Source: Fibrobacterota bacterium (GTDB lineage Bacteria; Fibrobacterota; Fibrobacteria; UBA11236). Taken from it: DNA of 64,000 nt. The stretch spans positions 186,001-250,000 of the forward strand of contig JAEKLQ010000022.1 of assembly GCA_019509785.1 (NCBI GenBank), written 5' to 3'. The notes beneath the pieces were generated by a model that was not told the DNA's origin, did not search any database, and worked only from the letters and a program-made list of their open reading frames with translations. This document shows positions 12,302 through 36,683 of the stretch, piece after piece; positions within the stretch are counted from its first letter, which is position 1; each line of letters starts with the position of its first letter. The translations under genes and the position numbers were made by a program.

Positions 12302-12437
12302 GCGCGATGCCTCCCGAATGCTTGCAAGTTAGCATCCGGATGCGGAGAAACGATTTTATTCCCATGCGTTATCGCAAATGCGATTTTATCCCCGTCGGGC
12401 CGCGCTCCGGGTGGGGTCGCGCGGCAAGGAGCCCAGC

Positions 12438-13610: not shown

Positions 13611-13620
13611 AGGGGCCGGA

Positions 13621-16600
13621 GTGAAATTCTCTTCCCTCTTCATCCGTCGCCCGGTGCTGGGCATCGTACTCAATCTCGTCATCGCCTTGCTGGGCCTGGT
13701 CTCCTTCAAATTCCTGGGGGTACGGGATTACCCTTCCGTGGATCCGCCGGTCATCACGGTCTCCACGACCTACACCGGCGCGGCGCCGGAGGTGATCGAG
13801 GCCCAGATCACCGAACCCCTGGAAAGCTCCATCAACGGCATCGCCGGCATCCGCACCCTCACTTCGTCCAGCTCCCAGGGCACCAGCGCCATTACGGTGG
13901 AATTCAACCTGGGAGCGGACCTGGAGGCCGCCGCCAACGACGTGCGGGACCGCGTCTCCCGCGCGGCGCGACAGCTGCCCACCGATCTCACCACTCCGCC
14001 CGCCATTACCAAGGCGGACGTGAACGCCTCGCCCATCCTGATCGTGACCGTGCAAAGCGACGCCCGCAGCCCCATCGATCTCAGCCAATACGCGTCCGAC
14101 GTGTTGACCGAGCGCGTGCAGACCATTCCCGGCGTGAGCGAGGTGCGCATCTTCGGGGAAAAGCGCTACGCCATCCGCCTGAACATGTCCGCGGGCCTGA
14201 TGGCCGCCAGAGGCGTGATCCCGGAAGACGTGCAGGCGGCCCTGAACCGGGAAAACGTGGAGCTTCCGGCGGGATACCTGGAGGGCAAGCGCACGGAGCT
14301 GACGGTGCGCTCCTTGAGCCGCCTCCAGGATCCGAAGGACTTCGAGGACCTGATCGTGAAGAGCGATAGCGGAAGGGTAGTGCGCTTTAGCGACATCGGG
14401 CGGGTGGAAGCAGGGGCGGAGAACGAGCGCACCATCATGAAGCTGAACGGGGTGGAAATGATCGGCGTGGCGGTGATCCCGCAGCCCGGGACGAACTATA
14501 TCGCCATCGCCGACGAGTTCTACAAGCGCCTCGATCAAGTCGTGGCGGAAGCGCCAAAGGATATCAAGATCCAGACCTTCCTGGACTATACGGCGAACGT
14601 CCGGCAATCGATCAAGGAGGTGCTGGAAACCCTCGCCGCCGCCTTCGCCCTGGTCGTGCTGGTCATCTTCGTATTCCTGCGGGACGGGCGCGCGACGCTC
14701 ATCCCGGTCATCGCCCTGCCCATCTCCCTTCTGGGCGCTTTCTTCCTGATGCTGGCCAGCGGCTTCTCCATCAACATCCTTTCCCTCCTGGCCATCGTGC
14801 TGGCCACCGGCCTGGTGGTGGACGATGCCATCGTGGTCCTGGAAAACATCTACCGGAAAATCGAGGATGGGGAAGACCCGGTGGCGGCCGGGCATCGGGG
14901 TTCGGCGGAAATCTTCTTCGCGGTCCTGTCCACCACCCTCACCTTGGCCGCCGTGTTCCTGCCCATCGTATTCCTCCAGGGCATCGTAGGCCGGCTCTTT
15001 CGGGAGTTCGGCGTGGTGGTGGCGGGCGCGGTGCTCATCTCCGCCTTCGTCTCCCTGACCATCACCCCCATGCTCTGCACGCGCTTCCTGAAACGGCGCG
15101 AACGCAAGCCGAGTTCCTTCTACGTCCGTAGCGAAGCCTTTTTCGAACGGCTCATCCATGGCTACCGCGGCCTCTTGGAGGGCTTTCTCGAACGGCGCTG
15201 GCTCAGCTTCGCCATCATGGGCCTTGCCGTGATCCTCATCTTCATCTTCTACCGGCAACTTCCCCGGGAACTGGCCCCCACCGAGGATCGTTCCCGCTTG
15301 AGCGTCAACGTCCGTGCCCCCGAGGGTACCTCCTACACGGCCATGGTCGATTACATGGACGCGCTGACAGGCCTGATCAAGAAGGCCGTTCCGGAGGAAA
15401 AGGGAGTGCAGATCCAAGTGGCCCCCAGCTTCGGCGGGACGGGGGCGGTGAATACCGGATCGGGCCGCATCATCCTGAAGGATCCCGGCCATCGCAAGCG
15501 CACCCAAACCGAAATCTCCGACGACCTCACCCGGGCCGTGAGGCAATTGAGCGCGGCCCGTACCATCGTTTCCGAAGAACAGACCGTCAGCACCAGCCGC
15601 CGCGGGGGCCTGCCTTTGCAGTTCGTGATCCAGGCGCCGGATCTGGATCGCCTCGCGGCCAAGCTCCCCGATTTCCTCCAGGCGGTGAACCGCGATCCCG
15701 CCTTCTCCGTGTCCGACGTGGATTTGAAGTTCAACAGCCCGGAGGTGCAGTTGCAGATCGACCGCGCCAAGGCCCAGGATCTGGGCGTCTCCCCGCTCGA
15801 CATCGATCAGGCCTTGCAATTGGGGCTCAGCGGCGCGCGCTTCGGGTATATCGTGCGCGGAGGCAAGCAGTACCAGATCATCGGGCAATTGGAACTGGAG
15901 GACCGCGACGATCCCTTGGTATTACGTTCCCTTTACGTGCGCGGGTCGGGGGGCCGGCTGGTGCAATTGGACAACGTGCTGCGCCTCCAGGAGGGCAGCA
16001 GCACGCCCACCCGCTTCCGCTACAACCGCTTCGCTTCCGCCACCGTAAGCGCGGGCCTATCCCCCGGCGTCACCTTGGGGGCCGGCATCCAGGAGATGGG
16101 CAAGATCGCCCGCGAGGTACTCGGCCCATCCTTCTCCACCGCCCTTACCGGCCCCGCCCGGGATTATTCGGAAAGCTCCTCTAGCCTCGCCTTCGCCTTC
16201 CTCTTCGCCCTGGCCCTCATCTACCTCGTCCTGGCCGCGCAATTCGAGAGCTTCAAGGACCCGCTGATCATCATGTTCACCGTGCCTTTGGCCCTGGCCG
16301 GCGCGTTCCTCTCCTTGTGGTATTTCGATCAATCGCTCAACATCTTCGGGGAGATCGGCATCATCATGCTGATCGGCCTGGTGACCAAGAACGGCATCCT
16401 GATCGTAGAGTTCGGTAATCAGCGCAAGGAGCACGGCCTCCCGGTCCGGGAAGCCATCATCGAATCGGCCACGGCGCGTTTCCGCCCCATCGTGATGACC
16501 AGCCTCACCGCCATCCTGGGTAGTTTGCCCATCGCGTTGGCCCTGGGCGCCGGGGCCAAGAGCCGGGTATCCATGGGCATCGTGGTCATCGGAGGCTTGC

Positions 16601-16698
16601 TGTTCAGCCTGGCGTTAACGCTATTCGTAGTGCCGGCGTTCTATACCTACCTGTCTTCTCCTGTCACCACTTCCAATGGTGATAAGCCGGCGCCTTAG
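13621..16698 (+). CDS. RND-family multidrug efflux pump (AcrB/MexB type)
   Basis: Inner-membrane proton-driven exporter of 1025 residues, full length for the HAE1 family, starting at GTG. The proton-relay acidic pair in helix 4 is Asp401-Asp402 (GLVVDDAIVVLENIYR). Twelve membrane segments and two large periplasmic loops are evident, beginning with the usual RRPVLGIVLNL. It forms an operon with the adaptor 10 bp upstream. An outer-membrane partner must be encoded elsewhere. Substrates cannot be inferred from sequence. Confidence 0.95.
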   Translation: MKFSSLFIRRPVLGIVLNLVIALLGLVSFKFLGVRDYPSVDPPVITVSTTYTGAAPEVIEAQITEPLESSINGIAGIRTLTSSSSQGTSAITVEFNLGADLEAAANDVRDRVSRAARQLPTDLTTPPAITKADVNASPILIVTVQSDARSPIDLSQYASDVLTERVQTIPGVSEVRIFGEKRYAIRLNMSAGLMAARGVIPEDVQAALNRENVELPAGYLEGKRTELTVRSLSRLQDPKDFEDLIVKSDSGRVVRFSDIGRVEAGAENERTIMKLNGVEMIGVAVIPQPGTNYIAIADEFYKRLDQVVAEAPKDIKIQTFLDYTANVRQSIKEVLETLAAAFALVVLVIFVFLRDGRATLIPVIALPISLLGAFFLMLASGFSINILSLLAIVLATGLVVDDAIVVLENIYRKIEDGEDPVAAGHRGSAEIFFAVLSTTLTLAAVFLPIVFLQGIVGRLFREFGVVVAGAVLISAFVSLTITPMLCTRFLKRRERKPSSFYVRSEAFFERLIHGYRGLLEGFLERRWLSFAIMGLAVILIFIFYRQLPRELAPTEDRSRLSVNVRAPEGTSYTAMVDYMDALTGLIKKAVPEEKGVQIQVAPSFGGTGAVNTGSGRIILKDPGHRKRTQTEISDDLTRAVRQLSAARTIVSEEQTVSTSRRGGLPLQFVIQAPDLDRLAAKLPDFLQAVNRDPAFSVSDVDLKFNSPEVQLQIDRAKAQDLGVSPLDIDQALQLGLSGARFGYIVRGGKQYQIIGQLELEDRDDPLVLRSLYVRGSGGRLVQLDNVLRLQEGSSTPTRFRYNRFASATVSAGLSPGVTLGAGIQEMGKIAREVLGPSFSTALTGPARDYSESSSSLAFAFLFALALIYLVLAAQFESFKDPLIIMFTVPLALAGAFLSLWYFDQSLNIFGEIGIIMLIGLVTKNGILIVEFGNQRKEHGLPVREAIIESATARFRPIVMTSLTAILGSLPIALALGAGAKSRVSMGIVVIGGLLFSLALTLFVVPAFYTYLSSPVTTSNGDKPAP

Positions 16699-24118: not shown

Positions 24119-24217
24119 GCTTCCCGTTTTCCCATCGGGAACCCCCCGGAGATTTAGGTCCGCGCCCCGAGGGCGGGAGTATAATGGATCGTTCCTAGGG
24201 AAATAGGGGGGATAGCC

Positions 24218-25480
24218 ATGGCGAATCGAATCGCTCCGGGGAAATGGACGGCATTGCTCCTCCTGTTCGCGGGTTGCGCATCGTCCTTGGCGCGCACGCT
24301 GGAAGTGGGACCGGGCAAAGCCTATGCCTTTCCCCACCAAGCCGCCGACGTCGCCATCGACGGCGATACCGTGGCAATCGCCGCCGCGAACTACGAGGGC
24401 GAAGTGGCCACTTGGAAGGCTAATGACTTGGTCCTTCGCGGGGTTTCGCGATACGCCCGCCTGCATGCCCCGGCGGATATCCCCAACGGCAAGGCCATCT
24501 GGGTGATCCAAGGCAAACGTACGACGGTCGAGAACATCGAGTTCTACGGCGCCGCCGTGCCGGATTTGAATGGCGCCGGCATCCGGCAAGAAGGGGACGG
24601 ACTCGTGGTCCGGAACTGCTTTTTCCACGACGATGAGGACGGGATCCTGGGTGGCGGCGGGGCCGCCAGCGAGGTCGTCATCGAGAACAGCGAATTCGCC
24701 GCCAACGGCCATGGGGATGGCTACAGCCATAACTTGTACATCTCCAATATCGCCTCGTTCACCTTCAGATTCTGCGACACCCACCACGCCAAGGTGGGCC
24801 ATGATCTCAAGAGCCGGGCGCAGAAGAACTTCATCCTGTACAACCGCATCTGGGACGGGGCGGAAGGAACGGCCAGCATGGAAATCGATCTGCCCAATGG
24901 CGGCACGTCCTACGTCATCGGCAACCAGATCCAACAAGGCCCGGCCAGCGAGAACTCCACCATCTTGAATTACGGAGCGGAGGGCCTGAGCAATACCGGC
25001 AAGGATTTGTACGTGGTGAACAATACCTTCGTGAACGATCGGACGGGCGGAGGTTCCTTCGTCAGCGTGGCTTCGGGCGGGACGGCCAAGATCATCAACA
25101 ACATCTTCGCCGGGCCCGGAACCGCGATTTCCGGATCCGCCGACACCGCGGCGGATTGGACGGGAAACGATCCCGGATTCCTGGATCGCCAGGGCTACGA
25201 CTATCGGCTGGCCGATGGTTCCCCAGCCATCGACAAGGGCAAGGATCCGGGAACGGCCGGGGGCTTTTCCCTGCTTCCGGTTTCCCAGTACGTTCCGAAT
25301 GCCCAAGGCATGTCCCGCCCTGCCAAGGGGCCATTGGACATCGGGGCCTACGAAGCGGGTACCGCGTTCCCGATCGCGATCCGGCTCGGGATCCGCACGG
25401 TGAAAGCCGGCCGCCGGTACGTCCTTCCGGTCGACTTGGCGGGGCGCGTATTGCCTAAGCGCCATTCCGGCGGCCGTTAA
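24218..25480 (+). CDS. Parallel beta-helix lipoprotein
   Basis: 420 residues with lipobox LFAGC. The rest is a right-handed parallel beta-helix, seen as repeated N-rich turns such as VENIEFYGAAV, VVRNCFFHDDEDG, VIENSEFAANG, YVVNNTFVNDRTGG and IINNIFAGPG. The C-terminus has the usual closing pattern of this fold, DYRLADGSPAIDKG and DIGAYEAG. Related folds are polysaccharide lyases and hydrolases or surface binding proteins; no catalytic site is identifiable. The last 30 residues (RTVKAGRRYVLPVDLAGRVL) look like the start of a short C-terminal beta domain. Confidence 0.8.
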   Translation: MANRIAPGKWTALLLLFAGCASSLARTLEVGPGKAYAFPHQAADVAIDGDTVAIAAANYEGEVATWKANDLVLRGVSRYARLHAPADIPNGKAIWVIQGKRTTVENIEFYGAAVPDLNGAGIRQEGDGLVVRNCFFHDDEDGILGGGGAASEVVIENSEFAANGHGDGYSHNLYISNIASFTFRFCDTHHAKVGHDLKSRAQKNFILYNRIWDGAEGTASMEIDLPNGGTSYVIGNQIQQGPASENSTILNYGAEGLSNTGKDLYVVNNTFVNDRTGGGSFVSVASGGTAKIINNIFAGPGTAISGSADTAADWTGNDPGFLDRQGYDYRLADGSPAIDKGKDPGTAGGFSLLPVSQYVPNAQGMSRPAKGPLDIGAYEAGTAFPIAIRLGIRTVKAGRRYVLPVDLAGRVLPKRHSGGR

Positions 25481-25508
25481 GGCGGCGTTGGCGTCAATCG
25501 GGCCGCAG

Positions 25509-25748
25509 CTAAACCGTTTTTGCGATCAGCATTCGCAGCAAATCCCCCACGGTGCGTACGGCCCGCAGGTCTTCCTGGGACAGGCGTATGGGGAACTGTT
25601 CCTGTAGCTCGATGATCATTTCCACCAGCAAAAACGATTCTTGCACCAATTCGAGCAGTAGGGCGTTTTCATCCAGGCTTTCCGGCTTCCGTTTCAGGAA
25701 ACGGGCCATGGAGTTTTTGAATGCCTCGCGGGTAGGCGGATTTCCCAT
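25509..25748 (-). CDS. Acyl carrier protein-like domain (second carrier of the cluster)
   Basis: 79 residues from ATG 25748, one base after the stop of the ferritin-like gene. It has the four-helix carrier-protein pattern; the predicted phosphopantetheine Ser is in LVQESFLLVEMIIEL, where the canonical DSL is replaced by ESF. The C-terminal helix reads RAVRTVGDLLRML. It is the last gene of the 25.5-36.3 kb operon, which also encodes an Sfp-type transferase able to load it. A longer frame to 25970 lies in the ferritin-like gene and is not used. Confidence 0.8.
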   Translation of the reverse strand: MGNPPTREAFKNSMARFLKRKPESLDENALLLELVQESFLLVEMIIELQEQFPIRLSQEDLRAVRTVGDLLRMLIAKTV

Positions 25749-25749
25749 T

Positions 25750-26367
25750 TCAGTCCTCTCCAATCTTTCCATCCTCTCCTGATTCGATGTCCGCATCGTT
25801 CCCGCCCAAGAGGACGTCCAGCTTGTCGCCATGCTTCGATAAGACATCGGCGTAGGCTTCCTGGTCGGCGGCGGAGTAGCGCCTGAGGGTGGATGCGATG
25901 GCATCCGCTCCGTATTCGTCTTCCATCCCCCGAAGGGCTTCGCGGATCCATTGCAAATGCCACTTCTCATCTTCCATGATCAGGGCCAAGGTCTCGCGCA
26001 CGGGGGCATCCAGGCCGGGCAGGCGGGCATGGCGGGAATATTGGTTGATGACGCGGCGTTCGAAGATTTGGGTCAGGGCCAGCACTTCCATCAGGTTGGC
26101 GGGCATGCCCGCGGCCGCCAGGTAACGTTCCTGGTACGTCTCCTCCAGCTTGAGGGGAACGGCCCCCAGCTTCGCCAGGCAATCGGTCCATAGGCGCGCG
26201 TGCTCAGCCTCGTCGGCGAAGTGGCGGGTGAGATCCATCTGGATGGATCCGGGTTTCATGGATTTGGCCAGCCGGCCGAAGAAAAGCGCGCCGGTGATCT
26301 CCGAGACCCGGTAGAAACTGAGGAGCCAGATCTGGTTTTCCTTATCCTTCGCGAAGTCCTTAGCCAA
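25750..26367 (-). CDS. Ferritin-like di-iron protein
   Basis: About 205 residues. I chose TTG at 26367 because it follows GGGAGGA closely and begins LAKDFAKDKENQIW; an ATG at 26427 lies inside the previous gene. The four-helix di-iron ligands are visible: Glu in VSEITGALFF, ExxH in DEAEHARLW, Glu in FERRVINQY and ExxH in EDEKWHLQWI. Such proteins are oxygenases or oxidases more often than iron stores when they lie in biosynthetic operons. It lies between the Ppant transferase and a carrier protein, which suggests a carrier-bound substrate. Confidence 0.8.
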   Translation of the reverse strand: MAKDFAKDKENQIWLLSFYRVSEITGALFFGRLAKSMKPGSIQMDLTRHFADEAEHARLWTDCLAKLGAVPLKLEETYQERYLAAAGMPANLMEVLALTQIFERRVINQYSRHARLPGLDAPVRETLALIMEDEKWHLQWIREALRGMEDEYGADAIASTLRRYSAADQEAYADVLSKHGDKLDVLLGGNDADIESGEDGKIGED

Positions 26368-27049
26368 GCGTCCTCCCGGTTCCCGCCGCCAACGATAGGT
26401 GCCAACCGGCCAGGCGATGCGATACATAACGGAATTCCCGGCGCCCTAACTCGGCCCGCAAGGCGGCCCGGCCGCGGCGGGCCATCGGATCGGACAGGCG
26501 ATAGTCCGCCAGGATACGCCCGCGGTTGCCCGTATCGGCCTTGAACAAGGCTTCCTTCGCGGTCCATAACCGCAGCAAAGCATCTTCGAATCCGGCGCTT
26601 TCGGGCGCAAGGCCGCGAAGGGCCAGGCGCGCGCGCTCCCCGTCGGAAAGGAAGAAGCGGGCCGATTCGCTGCGCAAGGAACGCTCGGCCTCCAGGTCGA
26701 CGCCCAGGCCTTGTCCGGGCGCGTCCAAGCAGGCGACGGCGACGGCCATGCCGCCGGAATGGGTCAGGGACATATCCGGGGCCGGAAAGGCCAGCCCCGC
26801 GGTATCGGGGCCCCTGTCCAGGCGCCGGAGCAGGCGGCGCAAGGCGGCGCGGCCCGTGAGCCAGGAACGCCTCCGTTCCGTTCCATCCAGGTTACGGTAA
26901 CGCGCGAGTTCCCCCGGGGTGAGCAGGTCCACGGACAAAGGGGAGAAGGCCACGGCCGCGCGCACGTCCAGGCCCAAGGCGCGGCGCCATTCCCCCGCCA
27001 ATCCGCCGGCCTCGAGGTAGGCGGAGATGCCGGGCAAGGTTTCAATCAT
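26360..27049 (-). CDS. 4'-phosphopantetheinyl transferase (Sfp type)
   Basis: 229 residues. It transfers phosphopantetheine from CoA to the serine of carrier proteins. The magnesium and CoA motifs are present: SLTHSGG (94-100), GVDLE (Asp118, Glu120) and LWTAKEALFK (Trp162, Lys165, Glu166). Length and motif order are those of the Sfp/EntD group used in secondary metabolism and not of AcpS. It overlaps the reductase gene upstream by 8 bp and the ferritin-like gene downstream by 8 bp. The two carrier proteins of the operon are obvious substrates. Confidence 0.92.
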   Translation of the reverse strand: MIETLPGISAYLEAGGLAGEWRRALGLDVRAAVAFSPLSVDLLTPGELARYRNLDGTERRRSWLTGRAALRRLLRRLDRGPDTAGLAFPAPDMSLTHSGGMAVAVACLDAPGQGLGVDLEAERSLRSESARFFLSDGERARLALRGLAPESAGFEDALLRLWTAKEALFKADTGNRGRILADYRLSDPMARRGRAALRAELGRREFRYVSHRLAGWHLSLAAGTGRTLG

Positions 27050-28142
27050 GGGCGGCCTCGCGGCCCCAGCGCGTGGCCACCAGGCGGGCGCAGGCGTTAC
27101 GGAGGAGGGTTTCCGGATCGGGAGCGCGATAAGCGGATCCCATCAAGGCGGCCAATTTGTCATTGCGGATATCCTTATCGATGTAAAGCTGGCGCGCGAA
27201 CGGTGCCACGCTGGCCACGCTCTGGCGCACGATTCCGCCCGCGAAGTTGCGCACGCCCTCGTCGAGCAAGGCGAAGGCCTCGAAGTCGGAGAAGAGGGGC
27301 GGCAGGATGCGGCGCGCGCGGAAACCGGCATCGCGGCCGAATTCGGCGAAGGCGGCATCGACCAGGCGGCCTAAGGTGAGGGATTCCCCGCGCGCATGGG
27401 AGGCGTGGTAAATGCCGCGGGGCGCGCCTTGGCGCAGTACGCAGACGGCCGCGGCGGCGGCGAAATCCCCGGTGACGAAATACAAAGGGGTTTCCGGCTT
27501 GCCGGGGACGATGGACATGAGTCCGTGGAAAAAAAGCTTGAGGGTATTGTGGAAGGCATTGTACTGGGTGACCTGGCCGAGCTCATTATCGGCGATGGCG
27601 GTGGCCAGGCGGCAGATTTTCCAGGGGAGATCCCGGTGGGCCGGCAGGAGGTTTTCGCATTCCCGTTTCGATCGTTCATAATGGTTGGCGAAGCCGTCCG
27701 CCTCGGTAAAATGGTCTTCCCCGATGGCGCCGGCCCGCAGGCCGGAGGCGTATACGCTGCTCAACAGGCAGAGGGAAGAGAGCGCCGGGCATCTTTCCGC
27801 GAAGGCCAGCAGCTTTTCCGCGCCGCGCACGTTGACCCGATCCGCCAAAGCCGCTTCTACGTTGAACCGGATCACGGCGGCTGCGTGCACGATGCCGGCC
27901 ACGGCCTTAGCATCGACTCCGACGAAAGGCTCCGGGTCCTCCAGATCGCCTGGTACGAAAGCGAAGCGCGGCGAAGGCCCTCCCAACGCGCGTTCCAGGT
28001 CTTCCCGCTTCGCGGCGGCCATGGCCCCGTCGCGAGCGCGGCTCCATAGGATAAGGGGGACATCGGTGGTCTCCGCCAAGCGGCGCGCCACGCGGGAGCC
28101 CAGGTATCCGTCCGCGCCGGTGATGAGGATGGCGCCCTTCAC
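27042..28142 (-). CDS. NAD(P)-dependent epimerase/reductase (extended SDR)
   Basis: About 366 residues from GTG 28142, which overlaps the upstream stop as GTGA. The Rossmann motif is TGADGYLGSRVA near the N-terminus and the catalytic YxxxK is in NHYERSKREC. The pattern LLSSVYASG...GEDHFTEADGF resembles thioester-reductase and epimerase members of the family. In this operon it may reduce a carrier-bound thioester or a keto group; that is inference. A longer open frame to 28235 runs into the preceding gene and is unlikely. Confidence 0.85.
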   Translation of the reverse strand: MKGAILITGADGYLGSRVARRLAETTDVPLILWSRARDGAMAAAKREDLERALGGPSPRFAFVPGDLEDPEPFVGVDAKAVAGIVHAAAVIRFNVEAALADRVNVRGAEKLLAFAERCPALSSLCLLSSVYASGLRAGAIGEDHFTEADGFANHYERSKRECENLLPAHRDLPWKICRLATAIADNELGQVTQYNAFHNTLKLFFHGLMSIVPGKPETPLYFVTGDFAAAAAVCVLRQGAPRGIYHASHARGESLTLGRLVDAAFAEFGRDAGFRARRILPPLFSDFEAFALLDEGVRNFAGGIVRQSVASVAPFARQLYIDKDIRNDKLAALMGSAYRAPDPETLLRNACARLVATRWGREAAHD

Positions 28143-29113
28143 GATTCCGCCTGGGGCAAAGGCCAACGGGAAGGTTCGCTTCCGAAGGCTTCCAGAAAAG
28201 CGTAGATCCAACGTTCCAAACCGAAGGCGACGCATCCGGAGTAGGCGTCCTCCCCGGCGCGTTTGATCCCGAAGGCTTCGCCGAAATAATTGCGGTGGAA
28301 GTTGATGGAACCGATGGCCAAAGGCTCTGAGAGGGCGGATTGGCCGGATGCGGATGCGGCGGCGCCATGGCCGGGAGCGGCTGCGGGGCCACTGCCGGCG
28401 ATGCCGGTTGCGGCGGTAGGCCCGCGATAAACCATCTCATGTTTGACCGGATCCAATTTTTGCAGCAGGTACTTGGGATTGGCCTTGGGGTTGAAGAAAG
28501 GATCGGTCGCCGTTTCCCAGGCGATGGGCAAGCCGATGGAGGCGAAATAGGCTTCCAGCTTTTCCCGGTAGCGTTGCAGGAAATCCTTCACCTCGTCCGC
28601 CGTGCCCAGGCAGACGATTTCGCGCATGGAGAAATTCCATTGCCGCCGCAACGGCAGGTAATGGGTTTCGCGACGGAAGCAGGCCGCGCGGGTGGTGAGA
28701 TAGAGGGGCGCATCCAAGGAGCTTCCTTGGAGCAAGGCGTAGAAATGGTAGCAGGCCGCGGGCGTGAGCGCCTCGCGTACGGGCGCGGCGGCGGCCAACC
28801 GGATGCTGCCGTCGTTGCGAAAAGGTTCCCCTTGAGCGAAAGCGGAGAGGTTGGATGGATCGGGATCCAGGGTAACCGGGAAGGTAACCAGGTGCGGGAA
28901 GGAACGGAAATAATCCAGGCGCGCCAGGTCCCGGGCGGCGATGAAGGCCGGGAAGCGATGGGCTTCGGCGCCACACTCCGCGGCCCAGGCCTGGAACAAG
29001 GCGTCGAGGCGGCGGAACAGACGCAAGGGCGCGCCGCTCAAGGATGTCTGGCCGGAGGGATGCCAACGGAGGCCCGGCAGCTTCTCCGGATCGAATCGGG
29101 GGACGGCTTCCAT
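28139..29113 (-). CDS. Class II aaRS-like amino acid:[carrier protein] ligase
   Basis: 324 residues related to the seryl-tRNA synthetase catalytic core but without the tRNA-binding arm. Members of this family activate an amino acid with ATP and attach it to the phosphopantetheine of a carrier protein. Motif 2 lies around TTRAACFRRETHYLPLRRQW (140-159) and motif 3 at GCVAFGLERW. Cys121, Glu165 and Cys294 sit where family members bind an active-site zinc. An Ala/Gly/Pro-rich insert of about 30 residues (232-261) is unusual. The carrier gene immediately upstream overlaps by ATGA, as expected for its partner. Confidence 0.85.
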   Translation of the reverse strand: MEAVPRFDPEKLPGLRWHPSGQTSLSGAPLRLFRRLDALFQAWAAECGAEAHRFPAFIAARDLARLDYFRSFPHLVTFPVTLDPDPSNLSAFAQGEPFRNDGSIRLAAAAPVREALTPAACYHFYALLQGSSLDAPLYLTTRAACFRRETHYLPLRRQWNFSMREIVCLGTADEVKDFLQRYREKLEAYFASIGLPIAWETATDPFFNPKANPKYLLQKLDPVKHEMVYRGPTAATGIAGSGPAAAPGHGAAASASGQSALSEPLAIGSINFHRNYFGEAFGIKRAGEDAYSGCVAFGLERWIYAFLEAFGSEPSRWPLPQAES

Positions 29114-29424
29114 CAGACGTTTCCGTTCCCGCCGAACGGACCGGGTTCGGCGCCGGGATCGATCCCCGCGCGGGTACCCCAGAAGGCGGCATAGATGGAC
29201 GCGACGTCCTTGAAGGCCCCCGGCTTGAGGCGTTCCACGTCGATGGGAGCGCCTGTCAGGCTTTCCAATTCCAGGATCAGATCCATGACTTGCAGGGAGG
29301 TGATGATGCGCCGTTCGAGGATGTGGGTATCGTCGGCGATGTCGGAGGCGGATACCTTGCCGGACAGGCGCGCGATGCGTTCCCGCAAGGCGTCCTTGAC
29401 GTCCTTCATGAGTTGCGGACGCAT
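29113..29424 (-). CDS. Acyl carrier protein (probable partner of the aaRS-like ligase)
   Basis: 103 residues from ATG 29424, overlapping the radical SAM stop as ATGA; ATG 29409 is an alternative. Carrier-protein helices are clear, with the modified Ser expected in RRIITSLQVMDLILELESL and a C-terminal helix VASIYAAFWG. A short Gly/Pro-rich tail follows. Its own stop overlaps the ligase start as ATGA, the arrangement seen with dedicated amino-acid carrier proteins. Confidence 0.85.
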   Translation of the reverse strand: MRPQLMKDVKDALRERIARLSGKVSASDIADDTHILERRIITSLQVMDLILELESLTGAPIDVERLKPGAFKDVASIYAAFWGTRAGIDPGAEPGPFGGNGNV

Positions 29425-30440
29425 CAGAACCAGCCGTCCTTCCACAGGGAGCAATCGCGGCAAGCCGGGCTCTTGTCGTACTGGCGCAGGCTCACCACGC
29501 GGCGGATCTCGCGCATGCGTTCCCCGTTCCACAATTCGGCGAGGGTATGCGTCTTCACGTTGCCGATGATCTCCTTGCGCGCCCAATCATGCACGCACAT
29601 CAGCACGTCGCCGTTATGCAGGATGTTGGCCGTGGAGAAGGGGATGGGGCAATGGCCCATCCACTTGCGGAACGCGTAGCGGCCGGCCTTGTGGGCCCAG
29701 GACAGTTCGCTTTCGGATACGCGCATGTCCCGATCGAATTCCTCCATCGCACCGGTGCGGTTGTTGGCGGTATACACGAAGACGGGCACGCCGCGGGCGG
29801 CCCATTTCCTGCGGAAGGCGTCCACCTCGGGCATATTGTCCTTCAGGCGGATCAGGCGAACGAACACCCGCGTCCCGGGCAGATCGGCGTTGAGCACGCG
29901 GTCCACGCCCGCCATCACCCGTTCGTAGTCCAGGCCGACGCGTACCTTCTTATAGACCTCGGGGCTGATGGCGTCCAGGCTGACGTCCAGCACGTCCAGG
30001 CCGCTCTGCTTGATCTTGGCGATGTTGCGGTCGTCCAGGAAAGCCCCGTTCGTCACCAGTTCCACCGTCACCTTTCCCTTGGTCTTCTCCTTGAAGTTCC
30101 GGATCTTGTCGAAGATGTGCGGATCGAGGAAGGGTTCGTTTTGCAGCATGGGCACGAAGGTGTCCACCTCCGGATGTTCCGCGATCTCGTCGGTGATCTT
30201 GTCGAACAGCCCGACCTCCATCCGGCCGCTGGGGAACACGTCCTTGAAGACGGGATACGGGCACATTTTGCAGGCGGCCTGGCAGGCGTTCACCGTCTGC
30301 AATTGGATGCCCATCGGGAAAGGCAGCTTGGCCATGTCCCGGCTCGGGGAATACTGATTGTTAGCCCACCGCATCTTGCCGTACAAGCGCCACTGGTATC
30401 GCAGCTTTCCCATCTTCTTGATCTTGGGGGTGGCTTCCAT
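29424..30440 (-). CDS. Radical SAM protein with SPASM-like C-terminal domain
   Basis: 338 residues from ATG 30440. The radical SAM cluster motif is CQAACKMC (Cys53, Cys57, Cys60), followed by the TIM-barrel pattern VELVTNGAFLDD and VLDVSLDAISPEVY. The C-terminal part has CPIPFSTANILHNGDVLMC and ACRDCSLW, the cysteine layout of an auxiliary Fe-S (SPASM/twitch) domain. Such enzymes modify peptides or small molecules by radical chemistry. No precursor-peptide gene is visible, so a carrier-bound or free amino acid is the more likely substrate here. Confidence 0.9.
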   Translation of the reverse strand: MEATPKIKKMGKLRYQWRLYGKMRWANNQYSPSRDMAKLPFPMGIQLQTVNACQAACKMCPYPVFKDVFPSGRMEVGLFDKITDEIAEHPEVDTFVPMLQNEPFLDPHIFDKIRNFKEKTKGKVTVELVTNGAFLDDRNIAKIKQSGLDVLDVSLDAISPEVYKKVRVGLDYERVMAGVDRVLNADLPGTRVFVRLIRLKDNMPEVDAFRRKWAARGVPVFVYTANNRTGAMEEFDRDMRVSESELSWAHKAGRYAFRKWMGHCPIPFSTANILHNGDVLMCVHDWARKEIIGNVKTHTLAELWNGERMREIRRVVSLRQYDKSPACRDCSLWKDGWF

Positions 30441-30480
30441 CGGTTTCCTTTGCGGTCCGCGTCCTGGTGAACCGCGGCTT

Positions 30481-31623
30481 TCAGACCAAGGCGGTTTCGA
30501 AGTGCAAGGGTAGGACGTCCAGGGCCGGCCCATGGTAACGGCCCGCGGGCGTGGTCACCAGCGCATCGATGTCGGTGGGCTGGGCCATGAGGCCGCGGAA
30601 GGCGGCGCTGAGCGGGTCTTTCTTGTCCAGGCCCACGGAAAGGAACGCGTAGCCGCGGCCGCGGGAGGCGTTATAAGCCTCGATGACCAGGGCCCGCAAC
30701 ACGTTGGCGCGGCCGTCAGCCACGCAGACGTTGACGGCGGTGAGATAACGCAAGGCCCCGCCCGGCGGCGGCAGGGGCGCGGCGCGTAGGAACGGGGCCG
30801 CGAGGTTGAAACCCGCGCGGAAGAGCTTGAGGTTGCGGGAGTAGCGCACCACGCGCATTTGCTTGAAGGACTCCTGATCCCAGAAGGCGACGAAGCCCAA
30901 CAAGCGGCCGCGGCCATCGCGCGCGAGCAGGTAGTCTTCCCAATCCAGGCCGGGGGCCATTTCCACCCAGGCGGCCAGGCTTTCCGGGGAGAACACGGGG
31001 GCGAATTGGCGGCCGGGCGCGACCCGTCGCCAAAGCTCCGCCATCTCTTCGCAGTCCGCTCGCGTGGCGCGCCGGATGGAGGCGCCGGTGGCCGTAGGAG
31101 GGTTCCGCTTCCAGAGCAGGCTCACGTTATGGGCCCGCAGGGTCGCGAAGCGCGTCAGCTCCGGCATTCCCCGCGGTCCTTCGGCGCGGCGGGCCATCGG
31201 CGCATTGCCCCCCAGCACGGTCATGACCGTGGGTACGTCATCGCCGCCGCGTTCGCGGCAATACCCGCGGATGAATCCCGATAGCGCGTCCGCGGCGCCG
31301 GACCCGCGTCGGTCGGGATGCACCTTGAGATCGCTGACGTACATGACGCGGGTCTCGGCACCGAACAGGTAAGCGAGACGCTCGGCCCCGGCCATGCAGC
31401 CCGCCAGGCCGCCGCCGGGCGCGTCCGCCACGGCCAACCGGAAGTCCTTGCCTTCCATGCGGTTCAAGGCGAAGAAATCCGGCGAGCGATCCACCCGCAG
31501 GCCGATGTCCCCTTCCATGGTGCATGCGGCCGACAGATCGATGAGGGCCTGATTGTCCTCCGGGGCCGCGAGGCGCGGCCGCCAGGCGGCGCGTTCCGCC
31601 GCGCTTCCTTCCGCTTTCATCAT
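30481..31623 (-). CDS. Double GNAT-domain acyltransferase
   Basis: 380 residues, two GNAT folds in tandem. The first has the acetyl-CoA loop in VSDLKVHPDRRGSGAADAL; the second (from about residue 180) starts IRRATRADCEEMAEL and is more degenerate. The start ATGATG overlaps the previous stop. GNAT proteins transfer acyl groups to amines. In a cluster with an amino acid:carrier-protein ligase it could N-acylate the amino acid or release it from the carrier; this is inferred. Confidence 0.8.
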   Translation of the reverse strand: MMKAEGSAAERAAWRPRLAAPEDNQALIDLSAACTMEGDIGLRVDRSPDFFALNRMEGKDFRLAVADAPGGGLAGCMAGAERLAYLFGAETRVMYVSDLKVHPDRRGSGAADALSGFIRGYCRERGGDDVPTVMTVLGGNAPMARRAEGPRGMPELTRFATLRAHNVSLLWKRNPPTATGASIRRATRADCEEMAELWRRVAPGRQFAPVFSPESLAAWVEMAPGLDWEDYLLARDGRGRLLGFVAFWDQESFKQMRVVRYSRNLKLFRAGFNLAAPFLRAAPLPPPGGALRYLTAVNVCVADGRANVLRALVIEAYNASRGRGYAFLSVGLDKKDPLSAAFRGLMAQPTDIDALVTTPAGRYHGPALDVLPLHFETALV

Positions 31624-32744
31624 GCCTCCTTACGGATGCGGCAAAAGGCGAAACGGCTCTGCATCAGGCTGCGATCTTTCTTGATCAGCTCGTCCCCGGC
31701 GGGGTCGAGGGGGAAGTGGGCCGCGAGGCGGGCGGGTAGGTCCGTCCAGCCAACGAAGTTGCGGAAGCAGAGGATCGCGCCGGGCTTGGCGGTGCGTAGG
31801 ATTTCCGCGAACAGATCTTCCAGCATGGCCGCATCGTGCCACTCCCCGATATTGGAGAGCGAGAAGCCGTCCAGGCTGGAGGCTGCTTGGGCGCGCAGGT
31901 ATTCGGTGAAAGTGGCGTCGACCAGCAGCAGGCGCTCGGCGGACCCCGCCGCGGCCGCGCCCCCGTCCTCGAGATAGGGGGGTAACGCGCCGGGTACGGA
32001 GGGATCGTAGCGTCCCAGCACCAGGAAGTGCAGGAAATAATTGGCGCGCGCGGGTCGGTGGCGCAGGGTGCGTTCGAACAGCCCGCGGAAATGCCGCGAG
32101 AAGCTGGGGTTTTCCACGTTGGCGAAAAATCCCGGATGGTATGCGCGATTGAAGACCGCGCGATTCAGCAACAGGGAGAACAGGAGGCGCCAACGGGGCG
32201 TGTCCCATTCCCTTTCGAAAAAGCGGATTTGCGATTCCAGATCCCCATAGGCCAGCAGCCTCCGCATGCGGGATTGCGGATGGATGAGCAAGCGCACGAC
32301 GCCCACGATGGCGCGCAGGAACTTTTCCGTGACACCGGCGGCGAGGACCCCGTCGGCCACGGCTTTCCGGCGCGCGTCCCAATAAGCGCGGGCGCCGGGG
32401 GAGAGCGCATCGCCCAGAACGGCATAGGCGCGGGCGCGTTCGGCCGCGGAGGCGGGCACGGCGCCCAGGAAGGCGCGGGCATCGCCGGGAGATAAGCGGC
32501 GCAGGGCGGCGGATTTCAATTCCACCAGATGGTTCTGGGAACGGTTCAGATCGATGGCGGCCACGTGGCCGGCGCCGCGGGCCAGCAGGGACAGGGCCGT
32601 GCAACCTCCCGAAGAGACCACTGCATAGCGCCCGCCGGAATGCGGACGCAGGACTTCCAATTCCAGGAGCGGATCTTCGCGCACTTGGGCGAAGAAAAGG
32701 CGGTCGTCCCGGGGGGTACCGTGGGCGATACGTTCGGGATTCAT
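31620..32744 (-). CDS. BtaA/DUF3419-like SAM-dependent 3-amino-3-carboxypropyl transferase
   Basis: 374 residues, full length for DUF3419. The SAM-site region is VVSSGGCTALSLLARG followed by AIDLNRSQNHLVELK (63-77), and the C-terminal part has SLSNIGEWHD and KPGAILCFRN. In betaine-lipid synthesis BtaA moves the aminocarboxypropyl group of SAM to diacylglycerol. No N-methyltransferase (BtaB) is fused or adjacent here, so the product is probably not an ordinary betaine lipid. It overlaps both neighbours by ATGA. Confidence 0.85.
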   Translation of the reverse strand: MNPERIAHGTPRDDRLFFAQVREDPLLELEVLRPHSGGRYAVVSSGGCTALSLLARGAGHVAAIDLNRSQNHLVELKSAALRRLSPGDARAFLGAVPASAAERARAYAVLGDALSPGARAYWDARRKAVADGVLAAGVTEKFLRAIVGVVRLLIHPQSRMRRLLAYGDLESQIRFFEREWDTPRWRLLFSLLLNRAVFNRAYHPGFFANVENPSFSRHFRGLFERTLRHRPARANYFLHFLVLGRYDPSVPGALPPYLEDGGAAAAGSAERLLLVDATFTEYLRAQAASSLDGFSLSNIGEWHDAAMLEDLFAEILRTAKPGAILCFRNFVGWTDLPARLAAHFPLDPAGDELIKKDRSLMQSRFAFCRIRKEA

Positions 32745-33658
32745 GCGGCCCCCGCGGCCAGCATGCCGTGGCGGCGCAGGAATTCCAGGCAGGGGCCCGC
32801 GATGGCGGACCGCCGCGCGGCCGCGGCGGGATGGTCGAAGGCTTGGTTGCGCAAGGCCAAGGCGTCCCCGGGCAGGCCCGCGTCCGCGTAGGCGCGGGGG
32901 TTGTAATATTCCTTCCAGACGGATTCCAGGTAACCTAGAAGGTACCCTTGCACGCGATCCCGGGCCGCGGCATCCCAAGCGGGCGCATGCTTGGCGAACA
33001 GGTCCCGCGCGACCCGGCGGCCGAATGCCAGATGCCGCGCTTCGTCCCGATGGTGCAGGGAATGGATGCGGCGGGCCAGGGGGTGGAGGCGTTCGTCCCG
33101 GGCGCAACGCGCGTTGTAGGCGTCCACGATCTCCTCGAAGATCATCACCTTGGCGAAAAAGAGGAAGTCCACTTCGCCCTCGGCCGCGTTCTCGACGGGG
33201 AGGAGGGCCATCTTCTTGTCGGGATAGATGCCGCCGGCATAGCGGCGGCAGAAGCCCCCGAACCAACCCATATGGCGGTTCTCTTCCTCCAGGAAATGGT
33301 GCAGGTAGGCATCGTGGCCCGGCAGCGCGCGGGTGGGGGACGTCGTCCCGATGCGGTCGATGGCGGGGCCGCGATCGCCGCGGTACAGGCGTAGGGCCAA
33401 GCCCGCCACCAGGGATTTCTCCCCGTGCACGTTGAGGCTGAAGAAGTTGACGGCCTCGAAGAAGCTCAGGCGCTTGCGCGCGCCTTCGTCCAGGGCCTCA
33501 TAGGCCGGCGTACCGTATAGGGACAACAGCTCCGGGGACAAAAACCAAGCTTCCCGATCCAGGACCGCGGGCCAATCGATGGCGTATTCCCCCGCCTGGG
33601 CTTCCGATGCCTCGCACAGTCGCGCGAGGGTCCTTTCCCAATTTTCCTCGCTGCTCAT
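32741..33658 (-). CDS. AurF-like di-iron N-oxygenase
   Basis: 305 residues from ATG 33658, overlapping the upstream stop as ATGA. It matches the AurF/CmlI di-iron oxygenase family (PF11583) that oxidises amines to hydroxylamine, nitroso or nitro groups. Predicted iron ligands are Glu80 (NVHGE), Glu126 and His129 (EEENRHM), Glu175/176 (FEEIVDAYN), and His202, Glu206 and His209 (HHRDEARH). This points to an N-oxygenated product, but some relatives oxidise carbon, so the chemistry is not proven. Confidence 0.85.
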   Translation of the reverse strand: MSSEENWERTLARLCEASEAQAGEYAIDWPAVLDREAWFLSPELLSLYGTPAYEALDEGARKRLSFFEAVNFFSLNVHGEKSLVAGLALRLYRGDRGPAIDRIGTTSPTRALPGHDAYLHHFLEEENRHMGWFGGFCRRYAGGIYPDKKMALLPVENAAEGEVDFLFFAKVMIFEEIVDAYNARCARDERLHPLARRIHSLHHRDEARHLAFGRRVARDLFAKHAPAWDAAARDRVQGYLLGYLESVWKEYYNPRAYADAGLPGDALALRNQAFDHPAAAARRSAIAGPCLEFLRRHGMLAAGAA

Positions 33659-34611
33659 CGGCACGCACACCTTTCCAGCACTACGCCCTGCCAATTCAGG
33701 CCATAGCCCGACATCAAGAGCAGCAACTTGTCGCCGGAGCGCACGCGGCCCTCCGCCTCCAGCCGCAACAGGTTCACGATATTGTCCCCGCTGATCATAT
33801 GCGCGACTTCCCCCAGGCTCGGGAACGCCACCTTATCGAAACCGATCCCCAGCAGGCGCGAGAGGATTTGCCAGGCTTTCACGTTCATGTTCTGGGTGAC
33901 GATTGCCGACAGGTCCCCGGCCTTGAGGCCCGCTTTCGCCAAGGTCTCGCCCACGAAGCGATGGGTATGATTGAAGAAGGTGCCCACCGTTTCGTCGTCC
34001 GAGGCCCGGGCCCAGGCCCCGTTGGTGCGCGCGTGGCAGGCCAGGATACGGTAACCCGCGGGTTTCCTGCCCACCACCATGGCCGCCGCCCCGTCCGAGA
34101 TCAGGTTGTAGGCTTGCTCGTATTTGGCCCCGGGGGGAAAACGATCCGCCGTGACGCAAAGCGCGGACTGCAAGGCCGGTTCGCCCGCCAGCATCAGAGC
34201 GGCCAGGCGCAGCGCGCCCAGAAGACCGGTGCAAGCCTGCTGGTTTACGCCCAGGACGAAGGCGTCTTCCAGTCCGAACTCCGCCTGCAAATGGCTGGCC
34301 GGGAAGTCCATCAGGTACTTCACGTCCCCGGTGGCCGCGAAGCGGGAGGGATCGCCCAGGTTGGCATTGGCCGGGATGCAGGTCGCGTACAGGAGGGCGC
34401 CGGTCCCCGCCAAATGCGGCCGGAGGGGTTCCACCGCGCGGCGCGCGAGATCGTATGCGGTCGTGCCTTCGGCACAGGCATGCTGCCGCGCGAACCCGGC
34501 GGCCCGCAGGGCCGCGGCCCCGGAGACCAGCAGGCCGAGGGCATCGGCTTCCTCCACCGTACGTTCCACCTCGCCCACGGCGAAAGCCATGGCGTTCAGG
34601 TAGGCGGGCAT
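33655..34611 (-). CDS. KASIII-like 3-oxoacyl-ACP synthase with altered active site
   Basis: 318 residues with the thiolase fold. The nucleophile Cys127 is in NQQACTGLLGAL. The normal HQAN motif reads TQNMNV (Gln240 where FabH has His), and the GNTSAAS-like loop reads GEVAHMISGDN, offering His271. The triad therefore differs from FabH. Such variants often condense or transfer unusual acyl groups. The start overlaps the acyl-AMP ligase end by 16 bp, so the ligase could supply its acyl substrate. Confidence 0.85.
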   Translation of the reverse strand: MPAYLNAMAFAVGEVERTVEEADALGLLVSGAAALRAAGFARQHACAEGTTAYDLARRAVEPLRPHLAGTGALLYATCIPANANLGDPSRFAATGDVKYLMDFPASHLQAEFGLEDAFVLGVNQQACTGLLGALRLAALMLAGEPALQSALCVTADRFPPGAKYEQAYNLISDGAAAMVVGRKPAGYRILACHARTNGAWARASDDETVGTFFNHTHRFVGETLAKAGLKAGDLSAIVTQNMNVKAWQILSRLLGIGFDKVAFPSLGEVAHMISGDNIVNLLRLEAEGRVRSGDKLLLLMSGYGLNWQGVVLERCACR

Positions 34612-36338
34612 GCCATCCCTTCCGCTCCGGCCTTGCCGAGCATGGCCTTGACCGCGTCCCGCCTCACCTTGCGCGTGGCCGTGCGCGGGAGTTCCTGTTC
34701 GGAAAAGAATACGCGCGCGGGCCGCTTCCAGGGCGAGAGCTCCGCCAAGGCCGCATCGATTCCCATGCCATCGGCCTTGCGTGCCGAACAATCCGGCTGC
34801 GGAACGATCACGGCCACGACCTCTTCCTTACCGTCCCGTCCGGGCATGGCCAGCACGCAGGCTTCCTTTACCCAGTCCAGGCGCGCCAGCAATTCCTCCG
34901 GTTCCTCGGGGTGGATTTTCTTCCCGCCTTCCAGCACGATCAGGCTCTTGATCCGGCCGGTGATCCGCAAGAATCCGTCCGCATCCAGGCAACCCAAGTC
35001 CCCGGTGCGGAACCAGCCCTCGGCATCGAAGGCTTCCGCCGTGAGGTCCGCCCGGCCATGGTAGCCGGCCATGACATGGGGCCCGCGGGTGCGGATTTCG
35101 CCTTCCGCATCCCCGCCCTTCGCGTCTTCGCCTTCCGCATCCACCGGGACGATGCGGACCTCGATGCCCGGCCAGGGACGGCCCACGGTACCCGCGCGCG
35201 CGCCGTGGGGCCGGTTGGCGCTGATCACGGGACTGGTTTCGGTCAGCCCATAGCCCTGGAAAACGACCAAGCCCAAGCGCGCCAGGAAATCCTCCGTGGC
35301 CGCGTCCAGGGGCGCCCCTCCGGAGATGAAGGCGCGCAGATTGCCGCCCAGGGCTTCATGCACGGGACGGAAAACCATGCGCCGCGCCGCCGCCGGAAGC
35401 CAGGGGGCCAAGCCCTGCCACGCCGAGAACAAGGCCCGCCGCCACCTGCCCTTGGCCGCCACCGCGGAACGCATCTGCCTGGCCACCAGACGCAAGAAGA
35501 AGGGGACCGCGATCATGTAGGTAACCTTGCGCCTACGTAACGCGTTCGTTACCTCGGAAGGAAGGAGGCTCCGGCAATAATAGACGCGCGCGCCCGCGTG
35601 GATCACCCCCAGCATGCCGCAGGTGAGTTCGAATAGGTGGTTGAGGGGGAGGATGGACAGGAATCGATCGTCGGAAGTGATGCCGAAGCCCTGCCTCTGG
35701 GCCTCTATCTGGAAAAGGAGATTGCCCACCGTGATCAAGGCCCCCTTGGCCGTTCCCGTGGTTCCCGACGTGTAAACGATGAGGGCCAGGTCGGCGCGGC
35801 GCTTATCGGGGAAGGGCATCGCTGGCGGCAAGGTATCCGTCCGCAGGGATTCGAGTTCCAAGATGGCATTGCCCGGCGAGCGGAGGCCGGCCGCCATTTC
35901 CGCGCATGCGCGCGAGGCGAGGATGACGACAGGGCGGGAATCCGTGACGATGGCGCCGAGTTCCGCCTTAGTGGCCTTTGCGTCCATTGGCACCAGCACG
36001 GCCCCGGCGATCTGGACCCCGAAAAAGGCGGCACCCCACTCCGGCCTTGATTCCGAAAGCAAGGCGACGCGGTCGCCGGGGACCACGCCCATCGCCTCCA
36101 GGCGCGCGGCCAGGCGAAGGGCGGTCGCATGCAATTCCCGGTAGCTGAAGCGGCCCGATCGCATTCCCGTAACGTCCGACCAGGCCAGCGCGGTACGGTC
36201 GCCGTGACGCTGCGCGCGTTCCCGCAGGAATTCCGCGAATCCGCGCCAATGGCCGTCCGTTCCCGCTTGGGGAACGGCGTCCTCCCCGGGCGTCTCTTTC
36301 TCCCTGGAAATCCATGTCCGGCCGGAAACGCTTGGCAT
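34596..36338 (-). CDS. AMP-dependent acyl-CoA/acyl-ACP ligase
   Basis: 580 residues of the ANL superfamily. The P-loop is YTSGTTGTAKGA, the A5 motif is GYGLTETSP, A7 is WFRTGDLG, A8 is RIKSLIVLEGGKKIHPEE and the catalytic C-terminal Lys is in PRTATRKVRR. It activates a carboxylic acid as an adenylate and passes it to CoA or a carrier protein. It is the first gene of the 12-gene operon, so the pathway probably starts from a fatty or aromatic acid. ATG 36338 has a poorly spaced AAAGG; the promoter was not identified. Confidence 0.93.
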   Translation of the reverse strand: MPSVSGRTWISREKETPGEDAVPQAGTDGHWRGFAEFLRERAQRHGDRTALAWSDVTGMRSGRFSYRELHATALRLAARLEAMGVVPGDRVALLSESRPEWGAAFFGVQIAGAVLVPMDAKATKAELGAIVTDSRPVVILASRACAEMAAGLRSPGNAILELESLRTDTLPPAMPFPDKRRADLALIVYTSGTTGTAKGALITVGNLLFQIEAQRQGFGITSDDRFLSILPLNHLFELTCGMLGVIHAGARVYYCRSLLPSEVTNALRRRKVTYMIAVPFFLRLVARQMRSAVAAKGRWRRALFSAWQGLAPWLPAAARRMVFRPVHEALGGNLRAFISGGAPLDAATEDFLARLGLVVFQGYGLTETSPVISANRPHGARAGTVGRPWPGIEVRIVPVDAEGEDAKGGDAEGEIRTRGPHVMAGYHGRADLTAEAFDAEGWFRTGDLGCLDADGFLRITGRIKSLIVLEGGKKIHPEEPEELLARLDWVKEACVLAMPGRDGKEEVVAVIVPQPDCSARKADGMGIDAALAELSPWKRPARVFFSEQELPRTATRKVRRDAVKAMLGKAGAEGMACPPT

Positions 36339-36479
36339 CCTTTATTTTGGACGCCCAACGGGCCGAATCCGGTAATGGGCTGGAGGCTTGGAATTTCGGG
36401 TCGCCGATCCCGCCGCCGACCGGGTGGCGGGCCGGAACCTAATTAAACGGCCACTTCTTGTGGTCTTTGGCCCCGGCGA

Positions 36480-36683
36480 TCAGCGGCGGAGGAAATCCGT
36501 CCCGGTAGGGGAGGCTTTCCGGCTCAGCTCCTCCGCCATGGGATCGTTTTCGCTGAGGAAATTCCCCTTGAGGTCCCAATAGGTTTTAACCCAGCGCGAG
36601 GGCAATCCGCCGGTCTCGTCCCCGCTGCGTAGATGTTCGACCTCGATGACCTGGATAAGCTTGGCGCGGATATCGTTCTGCAT
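36480..36683 (-). CDS. Small conserved-looking hypothetical protein
   Basis: 67 residues preceded by AGGAAGG. The central motif TYWDLKGNFLSENDP resembles small uncharacterised proteins found across bacteria, and charged residues dominate the ends. No signal peptide or membrane segment. It lies between the M18 aminopeptidase gene (upstream on the same strand) and the biosynthetic operon and could belong to either transcript. Function unknown. Confidence 0.55.
   Translation of the reverse strand: MQNDIRAKLIQVIEVEHLRSGDETGGLPSRWVKTYWDLKGNFLSENDPMAEELSRKASPTGTDFLRR

Follow-up and report, generated by a model that had tools for sequence, protein, structure and literature searches.

The closest described relatives of the operon reported here are the glycine-nitronate cassettes. 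As summarized in PMC9967187, PMC11035981 and PMC12154687, He and Ryan (Nat. Chem. 2021) described a module in which a diiron oxygenase turns carrier-bound glycine into a nitronate, which is O-methylated in enteromycin or denitrified by a nitronate monooxygenase (NMO). The HamC/PvfB pathways (fragin/valdiazen, pyrazine N-oxide; PMC5878181) likewise use an AurF-family N-oxygenase, a carrier-bound amino acid and reductive release. Our operon occupies positions 25509-36338 on the minus strand of a 64,000-nucleotide stretch of a Fibrobacterota bacterium genome (GCA_019509785.1, contig JAEKLQ010000022.1, positions 186,001-250,000), here called the window. Its twelve genes are numbered G1 to G12 in the direction of transcription. 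An initial annotation of the DNA considered the operon to be of an unrecognised type. In the literature we found no characterized cluster with this gene order or gene set, but one trio, encoding an AurF-like oxygenase (G3), a carrier protein (G7) and a ligase resembling class II aminoacyl-tRNA synthetases (aaRS; G8), matches the glycine-nitronate module type as portrayed in the papers cited. On sequence grounds, the operon is a known module that carries a new set of genes without a characterized product.

Comparison with the nitronate cassettes

The closest homologs outside the core family defined below belong to AurF-carrier-aaRS cassettes, found among others in Streptomyces, Tistrella and Agrobacterium. 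An AurF-like gene lies by the aaRS-like gene in 69 of 76 non-core loci (Tistrella was entered twice), 37 of these 69 also have an NMO gene, and the order AurF-carrier-aaRS(-NMO) is seen in many actinobacterial loci. Judged from their gene content, the surveyed cassettes probably represent the module type of He and Ryan, as far as the three later papers portray it. The core family resembles them in having a seven-ligand AurF-like oxygenase adjoining a carrier and an amino-acid-activating enzyme. It differs by extra genes for an acyltransferase resembling 3-ketoacyl-acyl carrier protein synthase III (KASIII), a second carrier, a short-chain dehydrogenase/reductase (SDR) akin to thioester reductases and a ferritin-like enzyme, and by the addition of exchangeable ICMT-like or DUF3419 tailoring. 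No match to NMO was found in any core locus or in the window operon. A nitronate-specific branch enzyme, either O-methyltransferase or NMO, is not seen in the window operon; an ICMT-like gene is present in 11 relatives. Whereas the HamC/PvfB pathways depend on adenylation by a nonribosomal peptide synthetase (NRPS), no NRPS gene occurs among the twelve genes of the window operon or the scanned neighbors in core loci. The sister of the core clade is a planctomycete cassette (L036) that has no KASIII-like gene.

Operon structure and recurrence

The twelve open reading frames (ORFs) are tightly coupled and lie in the order first described, and the ORF calls bear out that all intergenic gaps are 40 bp or less. 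From G1 to G12 the joints are overlaps of 16, 4, 4 and 1 bases (the last being 4 if the upstream one of two tandem ATGs is the start), a gap of 40, overlaps of 1, 1, 4, 8 and 8, and a gap of 1. Six joints had been counted as ATGA or GTGA; four are strictly so (G2/G3, G3/G4, G4/G5 and G8/G9), but the other two are one-base TGATG joints. Domain searches recovered nearly all the family names given initially, except that the second domain of the presumed double GNAT protein G5 was not confirmed by the Pfam search.

The assignment of these genes to one operon for carrier-protein biosynthesis is supported, and eight to nine of the genes recur as a block and form its core. The core order G2-G3-G7-G8-G9-G10-G11-G12 is common to the window and 14 more loci, and about eight phyla are represented. 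The block is carried by at least 15 genomes, mostly drafts of uncultured bacteria and largely metagenome-assembled genomes (MAGs) of poorly studied lineages. An aaRS-like alignment searched against 84,980 species genomes gave nine loci at 46-58% identity, after which identity fell to 42% or less. These nine, all MAG records (labeled Nitrospirae, Proteobacteria, Omnitrophota, Deltaproteobacteria, Melainabacteria, Acidobacteria, Alphaproteobacteria, Acidimicrobiales and Actinomycetota), carry all eight core genes in identical order. Within Fibrobacterota, both the aaRS-like and the KASIII-like protein were found in a single one of 168 genomes, that of the window, and in no other. Searches with a KASIII-like alignment gave 3 of 396 genomes in the phylum of L015 and 1 of 285 in that of L012; at the class level, the counts were 5 of 194 for L014 and 1 of 247 for L017. 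The already known locus is included in every count. Five further loci (L113-L117) were read and keep the core order, except L114, in which no match to G7 or G10 was found. In phylogenetic trees the G8 proteins of the core family form a single clade (support 99/99), and the G3 proteins nearly so. The core family is rare, scattered and strongly co-conserved, and the operon is real, beyond a chance array of genes. The twelve-gene order as such was seen in the window only.

Proposed amino acid loading and N-oxidation

G3 (32741-33658, 305 amino acids) belongs to the AurF family (Pfam PF11583, 9e-37), with 127.2 bits against a gathering cut-off of 29.6. Residues E68, E126, H129, E175, H202, E206 and H209 are invariant in all 15 members, and E175, H202, E206 and H209 align to AurF at a constant offset of 21. 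Identity to the enzymes of plasmid-borne cassettes is 30-38%. The G3 protein of the window has a 16-residue insertion that is missing from the six others in the alignment (A2).

G8 (28139-29113, 324 amino acids; tRNA-synt_2b, 1.6e-10) matches the amino acid:[carrier protein] ligase family PRK07080 (8.5e-40) and the structure 3mey (1.2e-34), the Bradyrhizobium ligase Bll0957. Its score of 136.6 is far below the curated NCBIfam cut-off of 357 for PRK07080, and as judged by these matches it represents a divergent subfamily of such ligases. Similar to Bll0957, G8 has a class II aaRS catalytic core without a tRNA-binding domain, and a carrier gene is adjacent in both cases. Residues C121, E165 and C294 are invariant in 15 of 15 members; we take them to be the zinc-ligand positions of the Bll0957 structure. 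The window protein has an Ala/Gly/Ser-rich insertion of some 30 residues (about 234-262) that is missing from the five homologs in the alignment (A1).

The carrier protein G7 (29113-29424, 103 amino acids; PP-binding, 0.004) has a Ser43 that is invariant among core homologs. In core loci its gene lies between the AurF and aaRS genes, like the carrier genes in the Streptomyces and Tistrella cassettes, and we propose that it is the aminoacyl carrier. The PP-binding match of G7 is below the Pfam cut-off, as are the GNAT match of G5 and the ferritin-like match of G11 described below. These three calls are weak on single sequences and gain support because residues are conserved in the homologs.

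The KASIII-like protein

G2 (33655-34611, 318 amino acids; ACP_syn_III_C, 4e-11) has 14 homologs of 51-60% identity. The initial annotation as a KASIII-like synthase holds for the family, but not for the FabH-type Cys-His-Asn triad: in all 15 proteins the cysteine is kept (Cys127), whereas the FabH histidine is replaced by Gln240 and the asparagine by His271. The predicted model (pLDDT 92) gives TM scores of about 0.8 to FabH, ChlB3, DpsC and OleA. A KASIII fold with non-FabH catalytic partners is also found in acyltransferases of the ChlB3/CerJ/DpsC type. With ChlB3, G2 has in common an aligned GH-x4-D stretch and the altered His/Asn pattern, but identity to this type is about 20% and a PQN motif stands in place of PHQ. 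G2 thus looks like an acyltransferase-type enzyme. Its acceptor would be an aminoacyl-carrier, whereas ChlB3-type enzymes use a sugar or polyketide. Since G2 is without the FabH His and Asn, decarboxylative condensation is not to be assumed; their loss fits passage of the acyl group to a nucleophile for which decarboxylation is not required, for example nitroacetate or a hydroxylamine, without indicating which.

The OleACD set for olefin or beta-lactone formation, which also combines an AMP-ligase, a KASIII-type protein and an SDR, was considered and rejected. G2 is without the OleA-type His/Asn, no OleB was seen, and the SDR G9 is far nearer to thioester reductases than to an OleD-type reductase (1e-14 vs 0.055). 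The 'hypothetical' gene by AurF in Streptomyces NBC_00335 and NBC_01431 was likewise dismissed as a KASIII-like gene, as it shows no similarity.

Proposed acyl activation, second carrier, reductase and ferritin-like protein

G1 (34596-36338, 580 amino acids) is an AMP-dependent acyl ligase (Pfam AMP-binding, 3.7e-81) for which we propose a role as acyl- or fatty-acid-activating enzyme. In most loci an AMP-ligase gene with 28-43% identity to G1 is found just upstream of the core. In L012 it lies several genes upstream, and the sole match in L010 is weak (29%), downstream and near the contig end. In L011 and L012 the AMP-ligase is part of a fusion protein with MFS and PlsC-type acyltransferase domains, an arrangement like that of the acyl-ACP synthetase Aas. 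The second carrier protein, G12 (25509-25748, 79 amino acids; PP-binding, 4.3e-7), has a Ser38 that is invariant among core homologs and is proposed to be the acyl carrier.

The SDR annotation of G9 (27042-28142, 366 amino acids; NAD_binding_4, 1.7e-22) can be refined, as its nearest relatives are thioester reductases of the polyketide synthase (PKS)/NRPS type (family match 1e-14; PDB matches to MxaA and PKS reductase domains). The SDR pair Tyr155-x3-Lys159 is invariant. G10 (26360-27049, 229 amino acids; ACPS, 4e-10) is an Sfp-type phosphopantetheinyl transferase with a WxxKE motif that is invariant in 14 sequences.

G11 (25750-26367, 205 amino acids) is a putative diiron oxidase with ferritin-like matches of 1.6e-4 to 4e-3. 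Residues E23, E53, H56, E103, E134 and H137, which make up two ExxH motifs and two further glutamates, are invariant in 15 proteins, and the homologs are 54-62% identical. The predicted model is a helical bundle whose structural matches, to 3ez0, aldehyde-deformylating oxygenase and PaaA, are weak. Assignment as an aldehyde-deformylating oxygenase was rejected since these Foldseek matches (best E 2.7e-3) are common to many ferritin-like folds.

Exchangeable tailoring genes

The DUF3419, GNAT and radical SAM (S-adenosylmethionine) genes are present in the operon as initially annotated, but they form an exchangeable accessory set and are not part of the core. G4 (31620-32744, 374 amino acids; Pfam DUF3419, 3.3e-47) and G5 (30481-31620, 379 amino acids; Acetyltransf_9 in the N-terminal half, 4.3e-5) have counterparts in L013, L017 and L018 only, so that they occur in 4 of 15 loci. 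The two genes adjoin in all four, and the G5 proteins are 54-60% identical. G6 (29424-30440, 338 amino acids; Radical_SAM, 1.5e-17; SPASM, 1.1e-14) has a single homolog among the loci (69% identity), in L013. This is the sole other locus with all three accessory genes; there an MMPL transporter gene separates them from the KASIII-like gene, which follows downstream. In the remaining 11 loci the KASIII-like gene is directly preceded by a gene for an ICMT/PEMT-like methyltransferase, and no locus has both alternatives. Such a split would arise by chance in 1 of 1365 cases if the 15 loci were independent; as some are closely related, this figure is an indication and no more. Since SAM-dependent alkyl transfer is expected of both alternatives, a role at the same stage is suggested for them.

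We propose that G4 is a SAM 3-amino-3-carboxypropyl transferase, in view of the DUF3419 domain that it has in common with BtaA, the 3-amino-3-carboxypropyl transferase of betaine-lipid synthesis (PMC10491745). Unlike BtaA, G4 is partnered by a GNAT protein and the operon has no betaine-lipid pair; domain searches found no methyltransferase that could be a BtaB-type N-methyltransferase partner among its genes. The exchange with an ICMT-like enzyme offers a handle on the substrates of DUF3419 proteins outside betaine-lipid synthesis.

Some relatives have exporter genes next to the operon: MMPL in L013, and HlyD and RND in Melainabacteria. The melainabacterial loci L115-L117 have further neighbors in common, encoding TPR proteins, HlyD, RND efflux proteins and a divergent radical SAM protein, and in L115 and L116 a TPR gene lies between the aaRS-like and SDR genes. 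A pair of HlyD and AcrB-type RND genes is found elsewhere in the window (12378-16698, plus strand).

Proposed pathway and alternatives

The initial interpretation that an acid is activated, an amino acid is loaded on a carrier and nitrogen is oxidized finds support in the predicted functions. From the gene set we infer the following substrates, order of steps and product. G8 would activate a small amino acid, for which glycine is the most likely candidate, and load it on G7, converted to the holo form by G10. The amino group would then be oxidized on the carrier by G3, with the nitro/nitronate level as the most likely outcome. In parallel, G1 would activate a carboxylic acid, probably a fatty acid, and load it on G12. 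G2 may then take the acyl group on its cysteine and pass it to the N-oxidized aminoacyl-carrier, either to carbon or to the N-oxygen group. Reduction of the carrier thioester by G9 would release the product, and G11 may act late as a second diiron enzyme in a further oxidation. SAM-dependent alkyl tailoring would be carried out by the ICMT-like enzyme in most relatives and by the DUF3419 and GNAT proteins, possibly with the radical SAM protein, in the window. This would yield a small, lipid-like molecule that is N-oxygenated, acylated and alkylated.

We consider this sequence, in which a carrier-bound amino acid (probably glycine) is N-oxidized, acylated, reductively released and alkylated, to be probable as a whole. 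Strong family parallels argue for amino acid loading by G8 and G7 and for N-oxidation by G3. Acyl transfer by G2 is suggested by its residue pattern and by the co-conservation of the second carrier and the AMP-ligase, whereas we infer the reductive release and the late steps. Several points weigh against the proposal. With 30-38% identity to the cassette enzymes, the oxidation level reached by G3 is uncertain; the substrate of G8 could be alanine, specificity not being readable from sequence; the ICMT-like protein has no match in the window, so tailoring may differ there; and a lipid product is suggested by indirect evidence, i.e. the AMP-ligase fusions, the kinship to BtaA and ICMT, and the exporters.

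The oxidation level bears on a rather unlikely alternative in which G3 stops at the N-hydroxy stage and acylation by G2 falls on the N-OH or N; the resulting N-hydroxy-N-acyl amino acid would bind metal as a hydroxamate or metallophore, without a new C-C bond. The acyltransferase-type residues of G2 suit heteroatom acylation, the products of FDO N-oxygenases span nitroso to nitro (PMC12154687), and the related HamC pathway makes a metallophore, fragin (PMC5878181). However, the presence of NMO in 37 of the 69 AurF-positive aaRS-linked loci points to nitro-level oxidation, and no siderophore-uptake gene turned up among the scanned neighbors. The FeoB gene beside the operon was rejected as a sign of iron function; it belongs to the ancestral locus and is present at the same site in congeners without the operon. 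Also unlikely is a pathway that starts from alanine or some other small residue, from which G3 would form an oxime or nitroso group, similar to PvfB and HamC in the pyrazine N-oxide and valdiazen pathways. Related amino acid:[carrier protein] ligases have been reported for Gly, Ala and Ser (PMC9437257), and AurF-like proteins of 29-33% identity adjoin NRPS genes in Nostoc and Azospirillum; nevertheless, G8 is closer to the aaRS-linked cassettes (up to 46%) than to other ligases of this kind, and the scanned neighbors in core loci are free of NRPS genes.

As to the acyl part, it is possible, if on balance doubtful, that G1 loads a short or aromatic acid and that the product is a small diffusible signal or antibiotic, not a lipid. 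The patchy spread across phyla is typical of secondary-metabolite clusters, and G1 scores far under the cut-off for any named acyl-CoA ligase, but the Aas-like AMP-ligase fusions, the membrane-enzyme-like tailoring (ICMT/PEMT, DUF3419) and the MMPL/RND exporters favor a hydrophobic product. A quite speculative variant of the proposed nitronate pathway would give the nitronate a third fate. Carrier-bound nitroacetate would serve as a carbon nucleophile that is fatty-acylated by G2 without decarboxylation, yielding a 2-nitro (later perhaps 2-amino) 3-oxo long-chain lipid that is reductively released and O-alkylated by the interchangeable SAM enzymes. If true, this would be a counterpart of the serine palmitoyltransferase reaction that is free of pyridoxal phosphate.

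The proposed pathway would join aaRS-type activation, N-oxidation and acyl-chain chemistry, and could lead to a new class of nitrogen-oxidized lipid or signal and to a new reaction for KASIII-like enzymes. The eight small core proteins are a defined set for biochemical study.

Genomic site

The operon and one plus-strand gene form a 12.4-kb segment (24127-36516) that is missing at the orthologous site of the congener G159, in which the matches to window positions 24126 and 36517 sit about 70 bp apart (locus L119). The genes for FeoB, a 126-amino-acid protein, an M18 peptidase and FloA are syntenic in congeners. The empty site and the flanking synteny indicate that the segment was either gained here or lost in relatives. 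Binning contamination of the contig was rejected since the flanks are syntenic with five congeners. The GC content of the segment is 0.657 as compared to 0.606-0.631 for the flanks, but its codon usage is no further from the flanks than the flank halves are from each other, and no repeats were found at the segment edges. A very recent gain is therefore unlikely, and a recent transfer visible in composition was rejected; old acquisition and loss in congeners are not separated by the composition. The plus-strand gene in the segment (24218-25480) encodes a protein of 420 amino acids without a Pfam family, and its region has partial DNA matches elsewhere in three congeners.

Other surveyed loci

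In the planctomycete locus (L036, 7766-13533) the AurF-carrier-aaRS genes are flanked by sulfotransferase and MBOAT acyltransferase genes. The Streptomyces-type cassettes L003 and L020-L022 also have an AMP-ligase gene and an ATC-hydrolase-like gene, and encode a conserved protein that belongs to no Pfam family and has 31% identity to a protein in L005. A Streptomyces clavuligerus plasmid (L006, 9996-14146) encodes an aaRS-like ligase, a small protein and an Sfp protein, without AurF; genes for a member of the phytanoyl-CoA dioxygenase family and for a condensation-domain protein lie nearby. On an Azospirillum plasmid (L009, 3947-19151), an AurF-like gene is accompanied by NRPS/PKS genes, a leucine carboxyl methyltransferase-type gene and an arginine 2,3-aminomutase gene.

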